Shown: positions 26,645 through 47,730 of the stretch, in pieces
Layout: each line of letters starts with the position of its first letter
Position numbering within the stretch: the first letter of the stretch is position 1
NCBI RefSeq assembly: GCF_022808595.1
Contig: NZ_JAKUCN010000003.1
Span: 124,001-188,000, forward strand
Length of the DNA stretch: 64,000 bases
From: Microvirga solisilvae
GTDB taxonomy: Bacteria > Pseudomonadota > Alphaproteobacteria > Rhizobiales > Beijerinckiaceae
Direction: 5' to 3'
Position numbers and translations under genes: made by a program
Notes under the pieces: model-generated
What the model saw: only the letters and a program-made list of their open reading frames with translations
What the model was told of the DNA's origin: nothing
Database searches by the model: none

Positions 26645-28621
26645 TCAATCCCGCATCGCGCTGATCTTGTACAGGAGTGTACGGTAGTAATCGGCAAGAG
26701 AAGGCGCGAGGGATTGGCATCGCACCACATGGGTGAGAGCGATGTCCCGTCGCCCCTCGCGCATCGCCTCGATCGCCCGAGCATGCGTCTCGGCAAGCTC
26801 CGCGATAGCCGGATCATGCCGTTGCGAAGCCGGCGCCACGACGGTGAAGATGGCGGATTCCGTCGCGCGTCCGCGCACCGCGATGCGATCCAATTCGATC
26901 AGCACGTAATCATCGCGCACGGCCTCCGCCGTATCCGGGCCGAGGATGAGCGAGACCTTGTATTCCTTCGACAGGCTCTCCAGGCGCGAGGCGAGATTCA
27001 CCGTATCGCCGAGTACGGAATAATCGTAGCGCCAGCGCGAGCCCACATTGCCCACGACGCAGTCGCCCGTGTTGATGCCGATGCCAACCGCGAAGACGGG
27101 CGCGTCCTCGCCTTCCTCACGGCGCAGGGTTTCGTTCAGCGCGCTCACCGCCTCCATCATGTGCAGGGCCGCGCTCACCGCGCGCTGCGGATGATCCGGG
27201 CGCGGCAGCGGCGCGTTCCAGAAGGCCATCACGCAGTCGCCCATGTATTTGTCGATGGTGCCGCCTTCCTTGAGCACGGCTTCCGAGAGCGGATCGAGCA
27301 GGCGGTTGATGAGCGAGGTCAGCCGCTCCGGCTGGTCTTTCAATCTTTCCGACAGGGAGGTGAAGCCGCGCACGTCGCAGAAGAGAATCGAGAGATTGCG
27401 TCGTTCGCCGCCGAGTTTCAGCGAGCTCGGATCGCGCGCGAGTTCGGCGACGAGATCTGGCGACAGATAGCGCGAGAAAGCCTCCGAGACCGCATGGCGC
27501 AACTGGCGTTCGCGGGCATAATCGAGACCGAAACGGGTGCCGAAGACGGCAAGCGCCGCTGCAGCAGGCAGGACGGGCGGCATCCACACGCGCTCGAAAC
27601 GCAGAACGACCCACGCGCCCGCGACGAGAAGGATGACCACGAAGAGCGCGGCAAACCCGGTGCGCCATGTGACACCGCGAATGGACAGGGCGGCTGCGAG
27701 AAAGGCCCCGCCGAAGAGCAAGGCCAGAACAGCGATGCGCGGCAGCGGGATGACGAACAGGCCGAGACGCAGATTGTCGATGATGGTGGCCTGGACTTCC
27801 ACGCCGGCGGTCAGGTCGCCTGTCGTCAGGGTGTAGGCGGTTGCGAATGTATCGGGCGCGCCGGCATCGGCGGAAGTCGCGGCCTTCAGGCTCAAGCCCA
27901 CCAGCACGATCTTGTCCTTGAAGCGTCCAGGCTGGAGGAATTCCTCCGGATCGAGCGCCTGATAATAGGACACGGTGGGATAGGTGCGTGTCGGGCCGAA
28001 GTGCTGGATGAGTGCCCCTTCCGGCGGCGGCTGCACGGGATGTCCGGCAAGGCGCAGAACCTCCGCCGCGAAGCTGTCGGCCTGGGTAGGCATCTGGCGC
28101 AGGTAAATATCGCCATCGGGTGCAACCGATGCAACGCCGGGGACTGCGCCTGCATCGAGGAACGGGTCGATGGGATTGACGCGCGTGACCTGAACGCCGT
28201 GTTCGAGTTTGGTCAGCACATCGTCGGCTGCCAGAACCACGTCGGGGCCGAGTGCGGCCGCGAGCCGCTTGTCGTCTTCCTCCGTCGAAGGCTCGGAGAA
28301 GATCACGTCGAAGACGATCACCTTCGCGCCCGCTGCACGCAGATGCTCGGCAAGCTGCGCATGCAAGGTGCGTGGCCAGGGCCAGCGTTGCCCGATCTGG
28401 GAAAAGGACGGCTCGTCGATGGCCACCACCTCGACACCGTAAGGATCAGGCTTCGGCGGCGAGATGATCGAGAGAATGTCGAACACCTTCGCCTCGATGA
28501 GCTTGAAAGGCTCGAAGAAAACGAGCGGCGTCAGCAGGGCCGCGATGAGCCCCGCCATGACGAAGTGCCGCCAGAGCGGCTCTCCGATCCGCGATGTCGG
28601 GGCGTTGCCGCGACCGTCCAC
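26645..28621 (-). CDS. Adenylate/guanylate cyclase with CHASE2 sensor domain
   Basis: 658 residues. N-terminal transmembrane anchor (VMAGLIAALLTPLVFF), an extracytoplasmic CHASE2 domain (about 38-300; VEVVAIDEPSFSQIGQRWPWPR and GRFKDKIVLVGLSL are typical), three closely spaced transmembrane segments (about 300-385), then a class III cyclase domain (about 420-620). Catalytic features: metal aspartates in LFCDVRGFTSLS and DKYMGDCVMAFW, and YSVLGDTVNLASRLE. It should make cAMP (or cGMP) in response to a periplasmic cue. It starts 2 bases after the stop of the FecR-TPR-barrel gene, so the two are almost surely one operon and probably one signalling path. Confidence 0.93.
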   Translation of the reverse strand: MDGRGNAPTSRIGEPLWRHFVMAGLIAALLTPLVFFEPFKLIEAKVFDILSIISPPKPDPYGVEVVAIDEPSFSQIGQRWPWPRTLHAQLAEHLRAAGAKVIVFDVIFSEPSTEEDDKRLAAALGPDVVLAADDVLTKLEHGVQVTRVNPIDPFLDAGAVPGVASVAPDGDIYLRQMPTQADSFAAEVLRLAGHPVQPPPEGALIQHFGPTRTYPTVSYYQALDPEEFLQPGRFKDKIVLVGLSLKAATSADAGAPDTFATAYTLTTGDLTAGVEVQATIIDNLRLGLFVIPLPRIAVLALLFGGAFLAAALSIRGVTWRTGFAALFVVILLVAGAWVVLRFERVWMPPVLPAAAALAVFGTRFGLDYARERQLRHAVSEAFSRYLSPDLVAELARDPSSLKLGGERRNLSILFCDVRGFTSLSERLKDQPERLTSLINRLLDPLSEAVLKEGGTIDKYMGDCVMAFWNAPLPRPDHPQRAVSAALHMMEAVSALNETLRREEGEDAPVFAVGIGINTGDCVVGNVGSRWRYDYSVLGDTVNLASRLESLSKEYKVSLILGPDTAEAVRDDYVLIELDRIAVRGRATESAIFTVVAPASQRHDPAIAELAETHARAIEAMREGRRDIALTHVVRCQSLAPSLADYYRTLLYKISAMRD

Positions 28622-28623
28622 TC

Positions 28624-31600
28624 TTAGAACCGCGCCTTCAGGGTTGCGGCGAAGGTGCGTCCCGATCCAGGAACGTCCGGGGCGACCTCGTATTGCTCAT
28701 CGAACATGTTGAGGACGCTCAGGCCCACAAGCAACCTGCGATCCGGCGTTTCCCAGGTGAGCGCAGCATCCGCCGTCCAGTAATCGTCGAGCTCGCGTCC
28801 GGCGAGATTGCCGGTGAGATCACCCACGAAGGTGGCTGCCACTGTCAACTTGAGACGCGAAGGGTGAACGAAAGTCACGCCGGTCCGCGCGAAATTGCCT
28901 GCGATCAGCGGCACGTCCCTGCCGTCCGCCAATCCGGCAGTGACTTCAGCCGATTGTGTGCCGACAGTGCCGAAGACGCCGAAGCCATGGGTCAGCCAGA
29001 GATTGGCCGTTGCGGCAAAACGCTCGATGCGCGCCTTGTCGATGGGGATCGTGCCGAACGTGTTCGGCACGCCGATATCGAGGTTCTCCGCTTCCTGCCG
29101 CTGATATTCGAGCGCGGTGAACAGATAGGGCGACCATTCCGCATCCCAACGCAGGGCCAATGTGTCGACCTCGCCGCCGAGTGCCAGCGGCAGATTGTTG
29201 GGAACGAGACCCACGGTGGTCACAGGCGAGAGCGTAAAGGCCAACGGCATCAGGCCGTCGCTGCGATAGGCGGCCCGCAGCCAGTGGCCCTCGAACGGCG
29301 AGAAGCCGATGCCGACACGTGGTGAGACGGCATCGGTGTCGCCTGAATCCGTGTCCAGTGCGGTACGCTGGATGCCGGCTTGCGCTTCGAACCAATCGGA
29401 CGGGCGCCAGTAGAGATCGGCATAGAGGCGGTTCGCGCTGAAATCGATGTCGGATTCCTCAGCGATGGGAGCGCTCGTTTGCTGGCCCGTTATGTCGAAG
29501 GTGTAGAGCCTGCCCGTCGTCCTGCTGAATGTGTTCCCGCGTTGCGCCTCGAAACCGTAACGCAGAGTGAAATCGCCGAAGCCGATGGTGTGCGCCAGAG
29601 CCGCCATGGCGCCTTCTGTGCGAATGCGCTTTCTCTGATTTCCCAAGAGAAGGCTGGTTGGAGTGAGAAGGCCGAAGGTTGAAGATTGAAGGTCGAGACC
29701 GCGCTGGCCGAAAACCGCTGCCGTCAGCACGTTTCTGTCGCTGAAGCTGTGGCTCCAGCCCGCGCCGCCGAGAACGGTGGTGGTGTCCTGCGTACCCGTG
29801 AACGCAGTCGTCGGCGTGTCGATGGTTGCGAGGCCCGGCTCGCTCTCCGAGGCTGCGCCGAACAGCACGAAGCGATCCGAGGCAGAAGGGGCCGCGCCGA
29901 TGAAGAACGCGCCCCTGGTTTCGTCCTCGCGGTCGATGGAAGCGCCGCGGCCTGCTCGGGCTCGGCCTGCCGTCAGCGAGAAGGAAGTCGGCAACGGCTC
30001 GTTGGAATAGCCCTGAACAGTGCCTTCCGCTAGCCAACCCACATGGCCGTTGCGCGACAGTACGCCGCCGCCAATTTCGGCATCGAGGAAGGGGCGGCGG
30101 ATCAGGTCGAGACGCCCGATGCGGCCTGAGACGGCGAGGGGATCGAAGAACAGGCCTTGGAGCGTGAGGTTGAGCGTCGTCAGATCCGCATCGACACCGG
30201 TTTCGATGGTGGAGACATCGGGCCGCGCGGTGAACAGGTTGGGACGCTCGACGACTGCCTGGTCGAAATAGCTCGCTGCATTGAACGGGTCGAACGTGCG
30301 GTCGCCATAAAAGCGCGACCACTCATTCAAGTTCAGGAAGCGATAGGCTTGCGCCGGATAGGAGCCGCCATCCTTGTTGACTGCAAGTCCTGCGAAATCG
30401 CCGCCACGGTCACGGTAACGCCGCAGAGTTTCACGTGCGGCGAGCACGGCCTGATCGGCCTGGTACTGATCGATAGCGATGGCCGTGCGGACGCTCGATA
30501 CGACGGGATCGTTGGGATCGAGACGGTCGGCATTGTCGAGGGCCTGATCGGCCAGGTCCTCATCGCCATTCTGGTAATAGGCGATGGCGGCCATCAGCAG
30601 GCCCTGAGACAAGGCCGGATTGGCGGCGGAACCAGCAAGAATGGCCTCGATGGCCTTCACGGCTTCGCCCTTCTGCAGCAAGTAACGGCCACGCGCAATG
30701 TAGGCCACGTGGAAGCCGGGATCGAGCGCGAGCGCCTTGTCGATCAGAGCGCCAGCCTCTTCGACGCGGCTCTGGTCGAGAAGAATAATGGCGAGATTGG
30801 CGTAGGAGACCGGACTGCCGGGATCTTCAGCAATCGCGCGCCGCAGCGCTTCCTCTGCTGCGAGAGGCCGGTCGCGGTCGGATTCGAACAGGCCGAGGCT
30901 GTTCCAGATATTCGAGTTGCCCGGCGCGATAGCGGCAGCTTTCCGCAAGGATTCGACGGCGGCATTCACCTCGCCGTCGATGTCGCCGCGAATATTGCTG
31001 TCGGCAGAGATCACTTCCGGATCGTCAGGATCGATGGCTTTCGCACGGGCGATCGATGCGCGCATCTCCTCGCGCCGGTTGAGAGCGTAGGAGACCTGCG
31101 CCGACATCACGGCGATGCGTGCATCGTTTGGGAAGCGTTTCTCTGCGGCCTTGAGAACGTCAGCGGCGGCTTTCAGATCCTGCCGGAAAGCGACCACATA
31201 GGCATGGGCCAAAGCGGCGAGAGGATCGTTGGAGGAGAATTTCGGTTCCGCATAAACGCGCTTGGGATCGGCGAGCGATTGCGCGATGTAGCGTCCGTAA
31301 GAAGCGATCACGCGCCGCTTGGCATCGACGCCGCGCTCGGCTTTGCCGAAGAGGGCGGCAGCCTCGGACCAGCGGTGCTCCGATCCGAGCAGGGTTGCCT
31401 CCACAAGATCGGCCCGCGCGCGCTGCGTGGCGCTCAAACCCTTGGCGCGTGCTTCCGCCAGAGCCTGCGCTGCAACGTTGCGACCATCGAGAACGAGCGC
31501 TGTCTCGGCAAGGCTCAGCCAGTCCTCGGTGCTGCGCCGCTCGGGCGCAATGCTTGCGACTCTTACACGCTCGGCCCGCAGGGCAGGGCCCGTCAGCGGC

Positions 31601-32247
31601 GAGACCGGCATCGACGAGAAGGTATCGCGCAGGCTCATGTAGAAGAGCATCTGCTCGCGATCCTCGGAATTCGTGAGCACGAATTTCGTCGGCGCCTGAC
31701 CGATGGATGCAACAGCGCCTTCGCCCTGGCGCACCGTCACGGAGCCCTGCGGGTTGCGTAGTTCCACCACGCCTTCGAGCACGACAAGAGAGGTTCGGCC
31801 TCCTTCGACGGACAGCGACCAATCGGTGCCGCGAATGGCGGCTACGGCCGCCGGCGTCTTCACATCGACACCGGTTCCTCCACGGGCAGCGCGGGCCCAG
31901 ATGTTGCCGGCATCGAGATTGAGGTTCGTGGTGCCGCTGCCGCCGCCTGCGACGCCGTTCACGGTGAGCGTGGAATTGCGGCCGACGCGGATCTGGGTCT
32001 GGTCGGCAAAGAGGATCGCCAAATTGCCGATAGCGTTGGTGCGCAGCACGTCGCCGCCGATCACGTCCTGCCTGATTTCAGCCGCGCGCCAGAGATCCTC
32101 GCGGACGAAGCGCATTTCCTCGCCGCCCTTGGCGGCCACGATCGAGCCCACGGCCGGAATCTGTCGGGGGACGGGTGACTGGGCATGAGCCTCGCTGAGA
32201 CAAAGCGCGAGGGTGCTTGCCGCCGCAAGAAGTTGGAGAGAACGCAT
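28624..32247 (-). CDS. FecR-domain / TPR / outer-membrane beta-barrel fusion protein
   Basis: 1207 residues. Signal peptide MRSLQLLAAASTLALCLSEAHA; FecR-like domain about 35-170 (DVLRTNAIGNLAILFADQTQIRVGRNSTLTV, KTPAAVAAIRGTDWSL, VLEGVVEL); helical TPR array about 235-640 (VISADSNIRGDIDGEVNAAVESLRKAAAIAPGNSNIWNSLGL and several successors); then about 500 residues of alternating beta-strand character (SFSLTAGRARAGRG, LRYGFEAQRGN) ending in a strand with C-terminal phenylalanine (ATLKARF), as outer-membrane barrels do. The barrel end resembles TonB-dependent receptors, but no plug domain is seen. Likely in the outer membrane with FecR and TPR parts in the periplasm. Cotranscribed with the CHASE2 cyclase. 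Confidence 0.85.
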   Translation of the reverse strand: MRSLQLLAAASTLALCLSEAHAQSPVPRQIPAVGSIVAAKGGEEMRFVREDLWRAAEIRQDVIGGDVLRTNAIGNLAILFADQTQIRVGRNSTLTVNGVAGGGSGTTNLNLDAGNIWARAARGGTGVDVKTPAAVAAIRGTDWSLSVEGGRTSLVVLEGVVELRNPQGSVTVRQGEGAVASIGQAPTKFVLTNSEDREQMLFYMSLRDTFSSMPVSPLTGPALRAERVRVASIAPERRSTEDWLSLAETALVLDGRNVAAQALAEARAKGLSATQRARADLVEATLLGSEHRWSEAAALFGKAERGVDAKRRVIASYGRYIAQSLADPKRVYAEPKFSSNDPLAALAHAYVVAFRQDLKAAADVLKAAEKRFPNDARIAVMSAQVSYALNRREEMRASIARAKAIDPDDPEVISADSNIRGDIDGEVNAAVESLRKAAAIAPGNSNIWNSLGLFESDRDRPLAAEEALRRAIAEDPGSPVSYANLAIILLDQSRVEEAGALIDKALALDPGFHVAYIARGRYLLQKGEAVKAIEAILAGSAANPALSQGLLMAAIAYYQNGDEDLADQALDNADRLDPNDPVVSSVRTAIAIDQYQADQAVLAARETLRRYRDRGGDFAGLAVNKDGGSYPAQAYRFLNLNEWSRFYGDRTFDPFNAASYFDQAVVERPNLFTARPDVSTIETGVDADLTTLNLTLQGLFFDPLAVSGRIGRLDLIRRPFLDAEIGGGVLSRNGHVGWLAEGTVQGYSNEPLPTSFSLTAGRARAGRGASIDREDETRGAFFIGAAPSASDRFVLFGAASESEPGLATIDTPTTAFTGTQDTTTVLGGAGWSHSFSDRNVLTAAVFGQRGLDLQSSTFGLLTPTSLLLGNQRKRIRTEGAMAALAHTIGFGDFTLRYGFEAQRGNTFSRTTGRLYTFDITGQQTSAPIAEESDIDFSANRLYADLYWRPSDWFEAQAGIQRTALDTDSGDTDAVSPRVGIGFSPFEGHWLRAAYRSDGLMPLAFTLSPVTTVGLVPNNLPLALGGEVDTLALRWDAEWSPYLFTALEYQRQEAENLDIGVPNTFGTIPIDKARIERFAATANLWLTHGFGVFGTVGTQSAEVTAGLADGRDVPLIAGNFARTGVTFVHPSRLKLTVAATFVGDLTGNLAGRELDDYWTADAALTWETPDRRLLVGLSVLNMFDEQYEVAPDVPGSGRTFAATLKARF

Positions 32248-32415: not shown

Positions 32416-32808
32416 TCAGGAGGAGCTGGTGCTCCGGGCCATGATCAGCTTCTGCTTCAGGTCGTGCTGGGCGAAAGGCTTCTGCAGGACGGGGCGGTCG
32501 CGGAAGGAATCGCGGATGCCGGCGCTGCCGTAGCCTGTCGAGAAAACAAAGGGAATGGAGCGCTGGGCCAGGGCTTCGGCCACCGGATAGATCGGCTCGC
32601 CGGCGACATTCACGTCGAGGATGGCGAGATCCACCTGCTCCTTGGAAACCGCGTCGAGCGCTGCGGAAAGGCGCGCGGCCGGGCCGATCACCTCGCAGCC
32701 GAAATCGAGCAGCATGTCTTCCAACAGCAGCGAGATTGCAGCCTCGTCTTCCACCACAAGGATGCGCAGGCCGTTCAAATCACCGTCGCTGGTCATGCCG
32801 TCAGTCAC
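32416..32808 (-). CDS. Stand-alone receiver-domain response regulator
   Basis: 130 residues, one receiver domain and nothing else: ILVVEDEAAISLLLEDML, phosphoacceptor aspartate in DLAILDVNVAGE, switch residues in FSTGYG and the lysine in VLQKPF. Lone receivers of this type in alphaproteobacteria usually take phosphate from HWE or HisKA_2 kinases and act by protein contacts. It precedes the FecR-TPR-barrel gene by 168 bases on the same strand and may or may not share a transcript. ATG at 32808; a second ATG at 32796 is possible. The kinase is not adjacent; two HWE/HisKA_2-type kinases lie at 44.5-47.7 kb. Confidence 0.92.
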   Translation of the reverse strand: MTDGMTSDGDLNGLRILVVEDEAAISLLLEDMLLDFGCEVIGPAARLSAALDAVSKEQVDLAILDVNVAGEPIYPVAEALAQRSIPFVFSTGYGSAGIRDSFRDRPVLQKPFAQHDLKQKLIMARSTSSS

Positions 32809-33022: not shown

Positions 33023-34006
33023 TTGACTTTATTAGGTAAAGCGATGGGGAAATTCCGGTTATTCAAGGTTTTCATGCGACTCTTCGCCTTATGTCTCATT
33101 GGTATCATGTCTTGCGCGCCGCTCGCGGCTCAGGATGGACCACGGGTGGTGGTGGCTTCCAAGGCCGACACGGAAGGGGCGCTGCTTGGGAGCATGATTG
33201 CCCTGGTGCTGGAGCGGCAAGGCATTCCCGTCGACCGCAAGCTGCATTTCGGGCCGACTCAAAGGGTCCGCGAGGCCATTCTGGCAGGCGAAATCCATAT
33301 CTATCCCGAATACACGGGAAACGGGGCGTTCTTCCACAATATGCCCGACGATCCGGCATGGAAGACGCCGGAAACCGCCTTCCAAACCGTCAGGCGATTG
33401 GATCACGAACGGCACAAGCTCGTGTGGCTCCCCCGGGCCCCGGCCAACAACACCTGGCTGATCGCCGTTAGGGGCGATGTGGCGCGGCGTCGGAATCTGA
33501 TCACCATGGCGGATTTCGCGGAAGCGGTGAAACGCTCGGCCGATCTCAAGCTCGCCGCCTCCGCGGAATTCGTGGAGAGCCCTGCGGCTCTTCCGTCATT
33601 CGAACGGATCTATAACTTCCATTTCCCCCGCGACCGCATCGTCATTCAACCGGGGGGCGACACCATGAAGACCATGCGCGCCGCCGTGCGCAATATCGAA
33701 GGCGTAAACGCAGCGATGGTCTACGGGACGGACGGGGCCATCGCCACATTCGATCTCGTGGTGATGAAGGACATGAAGGGCGCGCAGATCGTCTATGAGC
33801 CCGCGCCCGTCATCCGCGCGGAGATTCTGCAGCGCTACCCCAAGATCACCCAAGCGCTTGCTCCGGTTTTTGCCTCCCTCACGACGGCAAAACTCCAATC
33901 CCTCAACGCGGAGATCGTCGTCGAGGAGAAAACCCCGCAAGACGTGGCCCGGCGCTATCTCGACACGTTGGGTAAAGCAGCGCCGGGTCCAAGAACCTCG
34001 CCTTGA
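33023..34006 (+). CDS. Orphan osmoprotectant-type ABC substrate-binding protein (OsmF/YehZ-like)
   Basis: 327 residues. Signal peptide about 1-36 (FMRLFALCLIGIMSCAPLAA). Mature part has VVVASKADTEGALLGSMIALVLERQG, EIHIYPEYTGNGAFF, APANNTWLIAVR, LKLAASAEFVESPAALPSFERIY, MVYGTDGAIATFDLVVMKD: the OpuAC/QAT-type fold that binds betaine or choline-like quaternary amines. It is a clear paralogue of the binding protein at 37431, sharing DTEG, IYPEYTGN, APANNTW, LAASAEFV, ALPSF and AAMVYGTDG blocks. No permease or ATPase genes flank it; it may deliver to the importer at 37.4-41.3 kb. The start could also be an internal ATG. Confidence 0.9.
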   Translation: MTLLGKAMGKFRLFKVFMRLFALCLIGIMSCAPLAAQDGPRVVVASKADTEGALLGSMIALVLERQGIPVDRKLHFGPTQRVREAILAGEIHIYPEYTGNGAFFHNMPDDPAWKTPETAFQTVRRLDHERHKLVWLPRAPANNTWLIAVRGDVARRRNLITMADFAEAVKRSADLKLAASAEFVESPAALPSFERIYNFHFPRDRIVIQPGGDTMKTMRAAVRNIEGVNAAMVYGTDGAIATFDLVVMKDMKGAQIVYEPAPVIRAEILQRYPKITQALAPVFASLTTAKLQSLNAEIVVEEKTPQDVARRYLDTLGKAAPGPRTSP

Positions 34007-37430: not shown

Positions 37431-38345
37431 ATGAAGCCCGCTTTGAAAACCGTTGTCGTTGCCCTGGGCCTGGGTCTGGCGGCCCTGAGCCCCGCTAAAG
37501 CCGATGTGGTGGTTTCCTCGAAGATCGACACGGAAGGATCGGTCCTGGGGAACATGATTCTCCTGACCCTGGAGGCCAACGGCATCAAAACGCAGGACCG
37601 CATCCAGCTCGGCGCGACCCCGGTGGTGCGCAAGGCGATCACGGCGGGCGAGATCGACATCTATCCCGAATATACCGGTAATGCCGGCTTCTTCTTCAAC
37701 AAGGCGGACGATGCGGTCTGGAAGGACGCGGCCAAGGGTTTCGAGACCGCCAAGAAGCTGGATTACGACGCCAACAAGATCGTCTGGCTCGATCCGGCTC
37801 CCGCCAACAACACCTGGGCCATCGCGCTGCGTCGCGACGTGACCGAGGCCAACAAGCTCAAGACCCTGTCCGATTTCGGCAAATGGGTGTCCGGCGGCGG
37901 GCAGGTTAAACTCGCGGCTTCCGCCGAATTCGTGAATTCGGATGCGGCTCTTCCCTCCTTCCAGAAAGTCTACGGCTTCACCATGAAGCCCGAACAGCTC
38001 ATCGTGCTGTCCGGTGGCGATACGGCGGCCACCATCAAGGCGGCGGCCGAGCAGACCAGCGGTGCGAATGCCGCGATGGTCTACGGCACCGATGGCGGCA
38101 TCGCGCCTTCGGGTCTCGTAGTGCTGGAGGATGACAAGGGCGTGCAGCCGGTTTATGCGCCCGCGCCGATCATTCGCGAATCCGTGTTGAAGGAAAATCC
38201 GAAGATCGCCGAGGTCCTGAAGCCCGTCTTCGCCTCGCTCGATCTCACAACTCTTCAGAAGCTGAATGCACGTGTGCAGGTGGGCGGTGAGGCTGCAAAG
38301 GCGGTTGCGAGCGACTATCTGAAGTCCAAAGGGTTTCTTAAATAA
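37431..38345 (+). CDS. osmF: Osmoprotectant ABC transporter, substrate-binding protein (OsmF/YehZ type)
   Basis: 304 residues with signal peptide (LKTVVVALGLGLAALSPAKA). Periplasmic binding fold of the OpuAC/QAT family: VVSSKIDTEGSVLGNMILLTLEANG, EIDIYPEYTGNAGFFFN, APANNTWAIALRRDV, VKLAASAEFVNSDAALPSFQKVYG, AAMVYGTDGGIAPSGLVVLEDD. Binds a quaternary amine such as glycine betaine or choline; the ligand is inferred. Size and order match E. coli OsmF(YehZ)-YehY-YehX-YehW. First gene of a long rightward run that ends at 47.7 kb. RBS GAGGAAC precedes the ATG. Confidence 0.93.
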   Translation: MKPALKTVVVALGLGLAALSPAKADVVVSSKIDTEGSVLGNMILLTLEANGIKTQDRIQLGATPVVRKAITAGEIDIYPEYTGNAGFFFNKADDAVWKDAAKGFETAKKLDYDANKIVWLDPAPANNTWAIALRRDVTEANKLKTLSDFGKWVSGGGQVKLAASAEFVNSDAALPSFQKVYGFTMKPEQLIVLSGGDTAATIKAAAEQTSGANAAMVYGTDGGIAPSGLVVLEDDKGVQPVYAPAPIIRESVLKENPKIAEVLKPVFASLDLTTLQKLNARVQVGGEAAKAVASDYLKSKGFLK

Positions 38346-41288: not shown

Positions 41289-41851
41289 CGCTGCTCGAGC
41301 GGTTGAAAACGGAAACCCGGCCCGCCCACGATCGCATCGAGACCGCAATGGATCTCGAACGCCGCATCGCCGCCCGCGACGGCTACAAGGATTTGCTGAT
41401 CCGCTTCTACGGCTTCCACAGCGCCTGGGAAAAAGCGGCCGGAGCCATCGCGCCTGACAAGACGTTCTTCGAGAGCCGGTGCAAGACGAAACTCCTGGTG
41501 AAAGATCTTGTGACTCTGGGCCTGTCGGAAGAAGAGATCATTCGATTGCCGCAATGCGACCCTCTCATGCCCTTGCCGTCGCCCTCCGCGGTGCTCGGCA
41601 GCATGTATGTGGTCGAGGGAGCCACCTTGGGCGGCGCGATCATCGCGCGCGAAGTGGAGCGGAAGCTGGGCTTCGATGAACAGACGGGCTGTGCCTATTT
41701 CAAAAGCTACGGGCGTGAGACGGCTATGATGTGGAAGCAGTTCGGCGCAAGGCTTCTGGAGGTGTCGTCTCCCGATACCGATGACGAAATCGTGAGCACG
41801 GCACAGAAAACCTTCGACGTGATGCACGATTGGCTATGTGAGATTCCATGA
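41285..41851 (+). CDS. bphO: Biliverdin-producing heme oxygenase
   Basis: 188 residues. Cleaves heme to biliverdin IXalpha, CO and iron; biliverdin is the chromophore of the bacteriophytochrome encoded next. Proximal heme histidine in RLKTETRPAHDRIE (H15), distal helix region in PSAVLGSMYVVEGATLGGAII (glycine-rich, about 105-120) and a helical C-terminus. Resembles BphO/HmuO heme oxygenases. Starts inside the yehW stop (ATGA) and overlaps bphP by 4 bases (ATGA). Confidence 0.94.
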   Translation: MTLLERLKTETRPAHDRIETAMDLERRIAARDGYKDLLIRFYGFHSAWEKAAGAIAPDKTFFESRCKTKLLVKDLVTLGLSEEEIIRLPQCDPLMPLPSPSAVLGSMYVVEGATLGGAIIAREVERKLGFDEQTGCAYFKSYGRETAMMWKQFGARLLEVSSPDTDDEIVSTAQKTFDVMHDWLCEIP

Positions 41852-44088
41852 GCAGCCAAGAACCGCAAGAAATCGACCTCACTGCCTGCGAGCGGGAGCC
41901 CATCCACATCCCCGGCAGCATCCAGCCCCATGGCGTGCTGTTCGCTCTGTCGCGCACGGACATGACGGTGACCCATGCGACTGCGAACATTGCTTCCGTT
42001 TTCGGAATCGATCCGCCCTCGCTGCTTGGAAAGCCCTTTCATGAGGCATTGCCGAACATCGCCGCCGTTCTTGCGGAAGATGTGACCGAGCCGATGCCCT
42101 CCGGTACGGCCCGCTTCATCCGGACGGTTCTTCTGAAGACGGCGAACGGAGAAATCGCTTTCGATGCGGTGGTCTCCCATTCCGACGGCCATGTGGTTCT
42201 CGAACTCGAAATGGTGCCGGAAGACACGATCTCCAGCATCGACGCGCTCTATCCGACTCTCCGACGCTTCGTGGAAGAGCTGCATGGCGCTTCCACCGTG
42301 GATCGGCTCTGCCAATTGGCGGCCGCGGATATCCGCCGCATGACCGGGTTCGACCGGGTGCTCATCTACCGCTTCGACGAGCAGTGGAACGGAACCGTGA
42401 TTGCGGAGGACCGGAACGACGCGCTGCCGTCCTATCTCGATTTGCGCTTCCCGGCATCCGACATTCCGGCCCAGGCGCGCGAGCTTTACCGCCGCAACCG
42501 CCTGCGCATCATCCCGGATGCGGCCTACATTCCGGTGCCGATCCAGTCGCATGATCCCGCACCGCTCGACTTAAGCGACTCGGTTCTGCGCAGCGTGTCG
42601 CCGGTCCATCTCGAATACATGCGCAACATGGGAACGCCCGCTTCCATGTCGATCTCGATCCTGCGGGACGGCGCGCTTTGGGGGCTCATTTCCTGCCATA
42701 ACAGCGTGCCGAAGCGCGTCTCGCTGCCGGTGCGCAGTGCCTGCGACTTCCTCACCCAGATCTTCTCGCTTCAGCTTGAAGCGCGGGAAAATACGACGCT
42801 GGCGGAAAATCGCGTTCGTCTGCGCGCCGTTCAGGCCCGTCTTCTCGCCTACATGGCGGGCGAGAATTTCTTTATCGACGGTCTCGTGAACAATCCTGAC
42901 GATCTTATGCGGCTCGCGGGAGCCCAAGGCGTCGCCATCGTCACGGAGGATCATTGCTGGTGCCTGGGCGAAACGCCCGGCGAACGGCAGGTCAAGGCGC
43001 TCTATGCCTGGCTCTCCGAGCATCATCCGGAAGATGTGTTCGTCACCGACCGGCTCGCCGAGACCTTTCCGCAGGCGCAAGCCTATGTGGACAAGGCCAG
43101 CGGGCTCCTCTCCATCTCCATTTCCAAGATGCGGTCGAGCTACATACTCTGGTTCCGCCCCGAGATCGTGCAGACCGTGAAATGGGGTGGCAATCCCGAA
43201 AAACCCGTTCGGGAGGAGGCCGGCGCCACGCGGCTTCATCCGCGGTTGTCATTCGAGATCTGGAAGGAGACGGTAAGTGGCCGCTCGCTGGCGTGGGACA
43301 GAAGCGAGATCGAGGCGGTCAAGGAATTGCGCAACGCCGTCGTCGGCATCGTTCTGCGCCGGGCGGAGGAGCTGGCGGCTCTCGCCGATGAGCTGCGCCG
43401 CTCGAACAAGGAGCTGGAAGCTTTCTCTTATTCCGTCTCGCACGACCTGCGGGCACCCTTCCGGCATATCGTGGGTTATTCGGAACTCCTGAAGAAGCAG
43501 GAATGGTCCGATCTGTCCGAGCGTGGCAAACGGTACATCGATACCATCATCGAATCGGCCTATACGGCGGGAACTCTCGTCGACAACTTGCTCCGCTTTT
43601 CCCAGATGGGACGGACGGCTCTCAAGCCCCGAGCCGTCGATACGGCTGAGCTTGTCGAGGGAGTTCGCCGGAATCTGATTATGCATGTGGGCGACCAGAA
43701 GATCGAATGGAGCATTGGGAACCTGCCGCCCATCGTTGCCGATCCAGTGCTGATTCGGCTTGTTTTTGAGAATCTTTTGGATAATGCCGTCAAATATTCC
43801 CGAACTCGGGATACATCTCATATCGAAGTGGGTTCTTATCGGGATAACGGGGATGTCGTGTTTTTCGTGCGCGACAACGGTGTCGGCTTCGATATGAAAT
43901 ACGTCGACAAGCTGTTCGGCGTTTTCCAGCGCCTGCACAGGATCGAGGATTTCGAGGGAACCGGAATCGGTCTGGCCAATGTTCGCCGCATTGTCGAGAG
44001 ACACGGAGGGCGCAGTTGGGCCGAAGGCCAGCCGAATAAGGGGGCAACCTTCTATATTGCCCTGCCTGAGAGTGAAGGAGCGGCGTGA
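41848..44088 (+). CDS. bphP: Bacteriophytochrome photoreceptor histidine kinase
   Basis: 746 residues. PAS-GAF-PHY sensor followed by HisKA and HATPase. The biliverdin-binding cysteine is C14 (LTACEREPIHIPGSIQPHG). GAF has PASDIP (about 202-207) and HLEYMRNMG; PHY has WFRPE and the tongue motif PRLSF (about 463-467). The kinase H-box is SYSVSHDLRAPFRHIVGYSELL, then NLLDNAVKYS, DNGVGFD and GTGIGLANVRRI. All key residues for a red/far-red reversible, ATP-dependent kinase are present. Unlike the two kinases downstream it is a conventional HisKA type. RR follows with no gap (TGA then ATG). Confidence 0.97.
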   Translation: MSSQEPQEIDLTACEREPIHIPGSIQPHGVLFALSRTDMTVTHATANIASVFGIDPPSLLGKPFHEALPNIAAVLAEDVTEPMPSGTARFIRTVLLKTANGEIAFDAVVSHSDGHVVLELEMVPEDTISSIDALYPTLRRFVEELHGASTVDRLCQLAAADIRRMTGFDRVLIYRFDEQWNGTVIAEDRNDALPSYLDLRFPASDIPAQARELYRRNRLRIIPDAAYIPVPIQSHDPAPLDLSDSVLRSVSPVHLEYMRNMGTPASMSISILRDGALWGLISCHNSVPKRVSLPVRSACDFLTQIFSLQLEARENTTLAENRVRLRAVQARLLAYMAGENFFIDGLVNNPDDLMRLAGAQGVAIVTEDHCWCLGETPGERQVKALYAWLSEHHPEDVFVTDRLAETFPQAQAYVDKASGLLSISISKMRSSYILWFRPEIVQTVKWGGNPEKPVREEAGATRLHPRLSFEIWKETVSGRSLAWDRSEIEAVKELRNAVVGIVLRRAEELAALADELRRSNKELEAFSYSVSHDLRAPFRHIVGYSELLKKQEWSDLSERGKRYIDTIIESAYTAGTLVDNLLRFSQMGRTALKPRAVDTAELVEGVRRNLIMHVGDQKIEWSIGNLPPIVADPVLIRLVFENLLDNAVKYSRTRDTSHIEVGSYRDNGDVVFFVRDNGVGFDMKYVDKLFGVFQRLHRIEDFEGTGIGLANVRRIVERHGGRSWAEGQPNKGATFYIALPESEGAA

Positions 44089-44546: not shown

Positions 44547-45596
44547 ATGGACAGGGCGCCCGCTCTCCAGTCCAGCCGAACGCTCCGCATCCTCCTTCTG
44601 GAGGACAGCGCGCTCGATGCCGAGCTGGTGACGGAGACCCTGTCGGCGGCAGGATTGCGGGCCGATATAGAGCGGGTCGACCTGGAGCAGGACTTTTCCC
44701 AAGCACTGGGCAGCGGCACGTGGGACCTCGTGCTCGCCGATTACCTCCTTCCAGGCTTCGATGGCTTGAATGCTTTGAAGCTGGTGCGCGAGCGCCGCCC
44801 GGAATTACCCTTCGTCTTTGTGTCCGGAGCGCTCGGCGAGGAGGTCGCCGTCGAAGCGCTTAAGCGCGGCGCGACGGATTACGTGATCAAGGACAAGCTG
44901 AATCGGCTGCCCGCGACGGTGCTGCGCGCCTTGGCCGAGGCCGGCGAGCGCACCGAGAAGCGCCAAGCCCAGGATGCGCTGCAGAAACTCCTCGACGAGC
45001 GGACAGCGCTTCTGCATGAACTCGATCATCGGGTGAAAAATAATCTGCAGCTTCTTCTCTCTCTCACTGGTATCGAAATCCGCCATGCGGAAGACGAGGC
45101 GACCACACGCGTGCTGGAGCGCATGCGCGAGCGCCTCCAGGCTCTCGGCGCGGCGCATCGCGATCTTTATGACGGAAACGGCTCATCCCGGTTCGACGTG
45201 AGCCGCTTTGCCCGCGAACTTTGCGAAGAGTTGGCGGCCGCGCGGCCCGACATGGCAATCATGCCCGAATTCGATGTCGAGGACATCGAGGTCGAGGCGG
45301 CCAAGGCGGCGCCCATGGCGCTGCTGTTCAATGAGCTTATCGTCAATACCCTGACCCATGCCTACAAGGAGCGTCACGGCAAGCTGAAGCTCGGCATGCG
45401 CGTGCGCGACAACCAGCTGCTCTTCCAGATTTCCGACGATGCCTTCAGCCCGCAAGAGAAACGTGCGGCGCAGGAAGGCGCCTCAGGAACGATTCTGAAA
45501 GGTTTGGCGCGACAGCTCGATGCGAGTGTCGAGTGGCCGAGCGATGCACCTGAGGTTCTGGTGCGTGTCCTCATGCCGGTTCATGAAGTCGGCTGA
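44547..45596 (+). CDS. Receiver domain fused to HisKA_2-type histidine kinase
   Basis: 349 residues. N-terminal receiver (about 13-135) with phosphoacceptor D65 in LVLADYLLPGFDG and lysine in YVIKDKLNRLP. A kinase with the H-box LLHELDHRVKNNLQLLLSL (HisKA_2 / HWE-related) and ATP-binding N-box LFNELIVNTLTHAY follows; the C-terminal ATPase domain is short and the G boxes are weak. No transmembrane segment, so soluble. Likely a relay partner taking phosphate from bphP or the last kinase. One base separates it from the next gene (TGACATG). Confidence 0.9.
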   Translation: MDRAPALQSSRTLRILLLEDSALDAELVTETLSAAGLRADIERVDLEQDFSQALGSGTWDLVLADYLLPGFDGLNALKLVRERRPELPFVFVSGALGEEVAVEALKRGATDYVIKDKLNRLPATVLRALAEAGERTEKRQAQDALQKLLDERTALLHELDHRVKNNLQLLLSLTGIEIRHAEDEATTRVLERMRERLQALGAAHRDLYDGNGSSRFDVSRFARELCEELAAARPDMAIMPEFDVEDIEVEAAKAAPMALLFNELIVNTLTHAYKERHGKLKLGMRVRDNQLLFQISDDAFSPQEKRAAQEGASGTILKGLARQLDASVEWPSDAPEVLVRVLMPVHEVG

Positions 45597-45597
45597 C

Positions 45598-47730
45598 ATG
45601 AGCGGACAGGATCATCTCTCACCTAAAAAACCGATTCTGCCGATCGGCTCTCGCACATCCTTGCGTCAGGTGCTGTGGGGCCTGGTATTCGCATTGACCC
45701 TGCCCGCTGTTTTGATCGCGGCAATCGGCTTCTATTCTGGCTATCGTGCCGAGCGGGAGGGGATGGATCAACGTCTTCAGGAAACCACGCGCGCGCTCAG
45801 CCTCTCTCTCGACCGCGAGATCGAGAAGAGCGAGATGGCTTTACATGTCCTCGCATTATCTCCTTACATCGCCAGCAGCGATTTCGGCGCTTTCCACCAA
45901 CAGGCACGAGAGGTGGGGCTTGCCAGCCCCTCCTGGGTTGCCCTGATCGAGCCGGACGGCAAAATCCGCCTCAACACGCGCGTGCCTTATGGCGAACCCT
46001 TGTCCGACAGCACACGCCGCACCGCTCTGGCGAAGGTGCTGGAAACGCGCAAGGCCCAATTGTCGGATCTTTACATCGGGCCGGCGACGGGTCAGACGTT
46101 GATCACCCTGGACGTACCCGTCATCATCGGTGAGAAAGTCGCCTATATTCTCTCGGCCGCCATTGGCACCGAAGTCTTCCAGCGCCTCATTGCAGACCAG
46201 CGCATCGCCGCGGATTGGAACGCGGCCGTGCTCGACCGCAGCGGCCGCATCGTCGCGCGCTCCCGCTCTCCCGAGCGGTATGTAGGCCAGCTTGCAAGTC
46301 CTGTCGTGCGGGATGCGATCAGCACTTCCACGGAAGGCAATATGCAGAGCGTGACGCTCGACAATGTCCCCGTACGCACCTACTTCAGCAAATCGTCGGC
46401 CTATGGCTGGACCTTTGTGCTGAGCGTGCCTGACACGGAGATTTTTGCCTCGCTTCAACGCTCTCTGTTCTGGCTCGTGATCATGGTCGGCTGCATCCTG
46501 ATCGGCGTTGCGCTTGCCGCCATTCTCTCACGCCTCGTCGCCCGCCCTGTCGATCAGCTCGTGGCCGCGGCCCATGCGCTTGGCGCGGGACAGTCGGTGA
46601 CAGGCGCAACAACGCGTGTGCTGGAGTTCGACACGATCCAGAAGGCTGTTGCAGAGGCAGCTTCCGACATCCGCAAGCAGGCACAGGAGCGGGAAGTGGT
46701 GCTTGCCGGCATCGCCGAAAGCGAGGCGCGCTTGCGTCTGGCTTTGAGCGCGGGTGATCTCGGCTCCTGGGAATACACGCCGTCGAAGGGCGAGTTCATC
46801 ACCTCGGTCATGTGCCGCGCCAATTTCGGCCGCAGGCCGGACGAACCGTTTTCTTACGAAGACCTGCTTGCCGCCATTCACCCGGACGATCGCCAGCGAC
46901 AGGCTGAGGCCGTCGCCCGAGCCATCGAGAACCGATCCACGCTTCATGTGGAATATCGCGCGATTTGGCCCGACCACAGCGAGCATTGGATCCGCATCAG
47001 CGGTCGCGTGCGTGGAGGCAAGGACGGTTCTCTCTCGTTGGTCGGTGTTTCTCAAGATATTACGGCGCGACGTTTGGCGGATGAACGCCAGGGGCTTTTG
47101 CTGCACGAGCTCAATCACCGTGTGAAGAACACTCTGGCCACCGTGCAATCGGTCGCCGCCATGACGCGCCGCTCCGCCCAGGATGGGGATCTCCTCGCGT
47201 GGGATGCTTTCCTCGGAAGGTTGCAGGGTCTCTCGAAGACGCACGATCTTCTCACTGCCACCCAATGGCAGGGCGCATTGCTCGAAGATGTGCTCAAGAA
47301 CGAGCTCGAACCCTATCAGGATGCCATGCGCCAGCGCATCCGTCTGCGTGGTCCCCAGATCAACCTGCAGCCGAGCGCGGTTCTGGCCTTGGGTCTTGCC
47401 ATTCACGAACTGGCCACCAATGCCTCGAAATACGGAAGCCTCACGGTGCCGGAAGGCAAGGTCAATATAATGTGGGCAGTCACACCTTCTCTCAACCCGC
47501 CCATTCTGATCGTGGAATGGGTCGAGAGCGGCGGTCCGAGTGTTTCGCCACCCAAGCGCCAGGGCTTCGGCACGAAACTCATTCAGCGTGGTCTCGCACA
47601 GCAGCTCGGCGGTGAGATCAAGCTCGCTTTCGAGCCTGAAGGCATTCGCTGCGTCATCACCTTCCCGATCAAGAACGTGATGGTGGATGGCGAGGTGGAG
47701 GAAGAGGACAAGAGGCGGGCTGCATCCTGA
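45598..47730 (+). CDS. HWE-family sensor histidine kinase, membrane bound
   Basis: 710 residues from the ATG at 45598. First transmembrane segment (LWGLVFALTLPAVLIAAIGFYSG, about 25-47), double-Cache-like periplasmic sensor (about 50-295; WVALIEPDGKIRLNTR), second transmembrane segment (LFWLVIMVGCILIGVALAAIL), HAMP, a PAS domain (about 385-500; ESEARLRLALSAGDLGSWEY), then the HWE kinase with LLLHELNHRVKNTLATVQSV, IHELATNASKYGSL and the W-x-E of IVEWVESGG. Senses an external or envelope signal. Last gene of the run; followed by 86 bases and the amidase gene. Confidence 0.92.
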   Translation: MSGQDHLSPKKPILPIGSRTSLRQVLWGLVFALTLPAVLIAAIGFYSGYRAEREGMDQRLQETTRALSLSLDREIEKSEMALHVLALSPYIASSDFGAFHQQAREVGLASPSWVALIEPDGKIRLNTRVPYGEPLSDSTRRTALAKVLETRKAQLSDLYIGPATGQTLITLDVPVIIGEKVAYILSAAIGTEVFQRLIADQRIAADWNAAVLDRSGRIVARSRSPERYVGQLASPVVRDAISTSTEGNMQSVTLDNVPVRTYFSKSSAYGWTFVLSVPDTEIFASLQRSLFWLVIMVGCILIGVALAAILSRLVARPVDQLVAAAHALGAGQSVTGATTRVLEFDTIQKAVAEAASDIRKQAQEREVVLAGIAESEARLRLALSAGDLGSWEYTPSKGEFITSVMCRANFGRRPDEPFSYEDLLAAIHPDDRQRQAEAVARAIENRSTLHVEYRAIWPDHSEHWIRISGRVRGGKDGSLSLVGVSQDITARRLADERQGLLLHELNHRVKNTLATVQSVAAMTRRSAQDGDLLAWDAFLGRLQGLSKTHDLLTATQWQGALLEDVLKNELEPYQDAMRQRIRLRGPQINLQPSAVLALGLAIHELATNASKYGSLTVPEGKVNIMWAVTPSLNPPILIVEWVESGGPSVSPPKRQGFGTKLIQRGLAQQLGGEIKLAFEPEGIRCVITFPIKNVMVDGEVEEEDKRRAAS

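Follow-up and report, generated by a model that had tools for sequence, protein, structure and literature searches.

We analysed a window of 64,000 nucleotides from the soil bacterium Microvirga solisilvae (contig NZ_JAKUCN010000003.1, positions 124,001 to 188,000), in which two adjacent genes on the reverse strand encode an outer-membrane receptor and an adenylate cyclase. The receptor gene (28624..32247, minus strand) starts with ATG and encodes an NsrA-type outer-membrane receptor of 1207 residues that ends in ...KARF and comprises a signal peptide, a FecR domain, a TPR superhelix and a 22-strand barrel. Its first 22 residues (32182..32247; MRSLQLLAAASTLALCLSEAHAQ) read, from the letters only, as a signal peptide with a putative cleavage site between AHA and Q. 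The FecR domain with its flanks covers residues 35-200 (31648..32145) and is marked by a Pfam FecR match at residues 66-162 (8.1e-15), by domain identities and by a divergence correlated with that of CHASE2 (see below). Residues about 201-640 (30328..31647) form the TPR region, which matches several Pfam TPR families (best 4.1e-15), is helical in the structure model and diverges together with the barrel. The 22-strand outer-membrane barrel itself takes up residues about 720-1207 (28627..30090), up to the C-terminal Phe, as judged from AlphaFold2 and a fold search. An earlier, sequence-only reading had found a signal peptide, FecR, TPR and a barrel ending in phenylalanine within these 1207 residues, and the open reading frame, Pfam and AlphaFold2 all agree with it. 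It had also placed the start of the cyclase two bases after the receptor, and the gap between stop and start is exactly bases 28623 and 28622.

The second gene (26645..28621, minus strand) has a GTG start codon and encodes a CHASE2 adenylate cyclase of 658 residues, a CyaK homologue, according to its open reading frame, Pfam matches, homology and structure model. Pfam places CHASE2 at residues 27-295 (1.3e-39) and Guanylate_cyc at residues 408-588 (1.5e-22). The model, with a mean pLDDT of 85.1, has one helix N-terminal of CHASE2 and three C-terminal of it. This predicted layout fits a periplasmic CHASE2 domain and a cytoplasmic catalytic domain, and it agrees with the orientation that had been proposed from the sequence. 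The class III catalytic set is complete: D416, K458, D462, D539, N542 and R546 are invariant among 46 homologues. From knowledge of the family, we take D416 and D462 to be the metal aspartates, K458 and D539 the adenine-selecting residues, and N542 and R546 the transition-state residues.

Just upstream of the receptor lies a receiver-domain response regulator (32416..32808, minus strand), recognised by Pfam and by neighbourhood comparison. This receiver-only protein is conserved (82-96%) at almost every Microvirga locus and was not found upstream in rhizobial homologues; it is probably a conserved neighbour within Microvirga only, outside the receptor pair. No ECF sigma factor was found beside the receptor, where the flanking genes encode the receiver-domain protein, the CHASE2 cyclase, a cation efflux protein and an OpuAC protein, and the earlier observation that FecR here lacks a sigma-factor partner stands. 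Elsewhere in the window, two OpuAC-type substrate-binding proteins (33023-34006 and 37431-38345) are encoded about 3.4 kb apart; the latter was assigned by its likeness to the former and adjoins ABC transporter genes. A bacteriophytochrome-type histidine kinase (41848-44088; PAS_2, GAF, PHY and HisKA) is followed by a Cache-PAS HWE histidine kinase (45520-47730).

The pair has a counterpart in the legume symbiont Sinorhizobium meliloti, where nsrA (smb20775) is directly followed by cyaK on pSymB, as annotated in CP140934.1, which we located by a search of plasmid records. The receptor aligns with the annotated nsrA product over its whole length at 44% identity (1220 alignment columns, no large gaps), and the cyclase aligns with the annotated cyaK product at 50% identity over 592 columns. 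FecR and TPR domains were also found in S. meliloti NsrA, and gene order, adjacency and domain layout are the same in both organisms. The Microvirga pair is a new member of the NsrA-CyaK kind, and it is real and well conserved. The fusion of a barrel to FecR and TPR, which the sequence-only reading had called unusual, turns out not to be so: S. meliloti NsrA is built alike, and the receptor has hundreds of homologues, mostly from Hyphomicrobiales.

NsrA of S. meliloti is associated with the outer membrane, and CyaK depends on this receptor for making cAMP in response to a signal. S. meliloti responds to Medicago nodule signal 1 and purified uL2 only if both proteins are present; uL2 is a ribosomal protein and a candidate for the Medicago nodule signal sensed via NsrA, and the resulting cAMP acts via the regulator Clr (PMC7529298; PMC13001267). 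The M. solisilvae genome encodes several CRP-like proteins, among which no clear Clr orthologue was identified; for the two tested, Clr was not the best PDB match. The Microvirga pair differs from NsrA-CyaK in four further respects: neither nifH nor nodC exceeds the curated cut-offs in its genome, its chromosomal neighbourhood is fixed, its sensor cassette has been exchanged in several relatives (both described below), and its predicted outer loops are less acidic. Specifically, with loop limits that are approximate, the predicted external loops have a net charge of -17 here compared with -31 to -34 in Sinorhizobium, and they are nearly neutral in the receptors of Bosea and Methylocystis. Because the predicted loops are less acidic, uL2, the proposed ligand of NsrA, may not be the ligand of the Microvirga receptor.

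A Pfam search gave no family match for the receptor barrel. The AlphaFold2 model of the mature receptor, built on 60 homologues, has a mean pLDDT of 86.1. Its FecR domain is modelled as beta structure with lower confidence, the TPR region is a long superhelix, and the C-terminal part forms 22 strands (model residues 698-1184, protein residues 720-1206). Searching with the C-terminal part by Foldseek and VIA-align returned TonB-dependent receptors, including FoxA, FhuA, FecA and BtuB, with E-values of about 1e-17 to 1e-18 and Z of about 23. The C-terminal barrel, a feature on which the sequence-only reading depended, is thus predicted with confidence by both the model and the fold search. Pfam found no Plug domain in the receptor at E up to 1, or in its homologues at E up to 0.001, and the residues preceding the barrel are modelled as helices rather than as a plug. 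As modelled, the receptor barrel is of the TonB-dependent-receptor type, with 22 strands and without a recognisable plug; this is new here, and a modest surprise. Since its fold is that of TonB-dependent transporters, the barrel might be mainly a transporter or porin, with the cyclase reporting flux or the state of the envelope instead of a bound ligand. However, both the missing Plug match and the helices modelled ahead of the barrel speak against transport, and genetics backs a receptor role for the homologue NsrA (PMC7529298); we regard the transporter explanation as quite unlikely. In two receptor matches (genomes G015 and G018), homology is interrupted near residue 967, in a predicted external loop, while the frame stays open; these are likely loop insertions.

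The receptor was found in 36 of the 37 Microvirga genomes searched, this genome included, although contig ends, frame changes or insertions interrupt several of the matches. Among 397 genomes drawn evenly from the whole order, only 20 contained a strong match, and no phage relatives were found. With the pair in nearly every Microvirga genome, and this one lacking nifH and nodC, a symbiosis-specific role is unlikely; the pair likely has a role outside symbiosis.

The cyclase lies directly downstream of the receptor at 75 of 80 homologous loci. The other five consist of one contig end and four extra receptor copies, each in a genome with a paired receptor as well. Pairing persists across several Hyphomicrobiales families, at receptor identities down to about 42%; in other words, the association of the two genes that had been taken from this one sequence is conserved in relatives. 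The extra copies without a cyclase would be expected if the two genes were inherited neighbours with no direct functional coupling, but so persistent a pairing, the adjacency of FecR and CHASE2 genes throughout this genome (see below) and the genetics of nsrA and cyaK (PMC7529298) make that explanation very improbable. The cyclase-less copies (L048, L063, L064 and L077) come from three Microvirga genomes; in L048 the FecR part has diverged while the TPR-barrel part belongs to class I as defined below. In Microvirga zambiensis, a tandem pair of receptor genes stands ahead of a single cyclase (L039:2100-9645).

The M. solisilvae genome contains three FecR genes and three CHASE2 genes in total, and all three are same-strand neighbours with FecR directly upstream. 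By a rough estimate, the chance of this is about 1e-9. The genes of the window are 2 nt apart, and the two further pairs lie in other contig regions (L159:1567-6518 and L160:2342-6304). In the second pair, a FecR-cadherin-VWA protein is followed after a gap of 53 nt by a CHASE2 adenylate cyclase; in the third, a small FecR protein is followed after 75 nt by a CHASE2-PAS-GGDEF-EAL protein. Neither of these two FecR partners has a TPR match.

FecR-CHASE2 pairs had been said, in the sequence-only reading, to occur in other genomes, and they do in Burkholderia (PMC5192318) and Campylobacterota (PMC9239204); the ligands of CHASE2 domains have been described as unknown (PMC5192318). In the Campylobacterota cluster, too, a CHASE2 adenylate cyclase occurs with TPR and an outer-membrane FecR protein, but FecR and TPR lie on separate polypeptides there and the cluster also contains a phosphodiesterase (PMC9239204), whereas in Microvirga FecR, TPR and barrel form one protein. 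The Burkholderia operon also pairs a FecR protein with a CHASE2 sensor; in it, LysM takes the place of the TPR and barrel, and a histidine kinase and response regulator provide the output (PMC5192318). The FecA-FecR-FecI system shares with the Microvirga pair a TonB-dependent-receptor-type barrel, a FecR domain and a relay across the envelope. It differs in that, in Microvirga, one protein contains both FecR and the barrel, no plug is recognised in it, and its partner is a CHASE2 cyclase instead of an ECF sigma factor.

Within Microvirga, the genes occupy a fixed chromosomal site in the order response regulator, receptor, cyclase and MntE-like transporter. We sorted the receptors by TPR and barrel sequence into class I (n = 23, including the window), class II (n = 5), class III (n = 4) and class IV (n = 1). 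FecR is 82% identical between classes I and II and 84% within class I, and CHASE2 is 73% identical between these classes and 71% within class I. The TPR and barrel, in contrast, are only 47-56% identical between classes I and II, near the level of the outgroups, which include Bosea and Methylocystis. DNA identity can be followed along the site by comparing, for example, L059 (class III) with L057 (class I): it is 81-95% upstream and about 90% over most of FecR, drops near codon 200-210 to 44-71% for the TPR and barrel, and recovers at the cyclase start to 86-96% for most of the cyclase. The simplest reading is that the TPR-barrel segment was replaced in place, by recombination in the conserved flanks. 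We looked for a donor of the class II sensor in the 397 genomes of the order, where the nearest sequence outside Microvirga reached only 48%. Class II sensors are also present as cyclase-less extra copies, which could be a source; FecR identities for L047 and L077 rested on truncated stretches and were disregarded.

We compared the divergence of the separate parts by Mantel tests across 33 Microvirga loci. TPR and barrel are tightly correlated (0.93), and FecR correlates with CHASE2 (0.53, p 0.0002; partial correlation given the barrel 0.56). The barrel does not correlate with CHASE2 (0.01, p 0.43), even though it sits between FecR and the cyclase, and neither does the TPR region (-0.05). Seven changes of barrel class are needed on the CHASE2 tree versus three on the barrel tree. 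No such decoupling of barrel from CHASE2 was seen in rhizobial homologues. With FastTree and AU tests, nearly every cross-tree was rejected, even that of CHASE2 versus CYC; these rejections show widespread recombination and alone are not decisive. The FecR data disagreed less with the barrel tree than with the CHASE2 tree, whereas for the cyclase data the FecR tree was a better fit than either the TPR or the barrel tree. The argument for exchange is carried by the distance-based Mantel tests and the DNA profiles.

Because TPR and barrel were exchanged while FecR stayed with the cyclase, the pattern suggests that it is FecR, not TPR, that matches CHASE2, a result that is new here. Exchange of a sensor whose two neighbours, FecR and the cyclase, stay constant is a modest surprise. 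The co-inheritance of FecR and CHASE2 could also simply come from vertical inheritance of the two flanks of a replaced segment. Protein interactions are a typical task of TPRs, and it might be the TPR that contacts CHASE2, with FecR serving otherwise, for example by binding peptidoglycan or another periplasmic partner; in the CHASE2-FecR operons of Burkholderia, FecR carries an additional LysM domain, which binds peptidoglycan (PMC5192318). Contact through the TPR is nevertheless unlikely, given that CHASE2 divergence in Microvirga follows FecR and not TPR, and that the two remaining CHASE2 genes of the genome have as neighbours FecR proteins without a TPR match.

It is highly probable, in our judgement, that the two genes form a trans-envelope cAMP receptor of the NsrA-CyaK kind, with a FecR-CHASE2 relay and an exchangeable TPR and barrel sensor. 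The 22-strand barrel in the outer membrane would bind an external cue, probably macromolecular or peptide, and in the periplasm the TPR superhelix and FecR domain would signal the barrel's state to CHASE2, the periplasmic domain of the cyclase in the inner membrane. FecR and CHASE2 would act as a conserved relay, as their co-inheritance and their adjacency in all three pairs suggest, and may touch directly. CHASE2 would then regulate the class III catalytic domain, yielding cAMP for CRP-type regulators, and the TPR and barrel together would be the unit that is exchanged. The sequence-only reading had proposed a trans-envelope switch in which the FecR and TPR part contacts CHASE2. Its course from a sensing barrel to cAMP is well supported by homology, owing to the published genetics of NsrA-CyaK, up to the contact step; for that step we infer FecR to be favoured over TPR.

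A broader proposal, to which we give an even chance, is that NsrA-type receptors are modular: the TPR and barrel cassette would be exchanged at a fixed site, perhaps with cyclase-less copies as a reservoir, so that the cAMP pathway is re-aimed at new external cues, and FecR-CHASE2 would be a general plug and socket across bacteria. The exchange pattern predicts that FecR is the plug, that CHASE2 is the socket and that barrels can be swapped. The distribution of the pair suggests that a pathway known from the control of legume infection serves generally to sense the environment and was adapted by symbionts.
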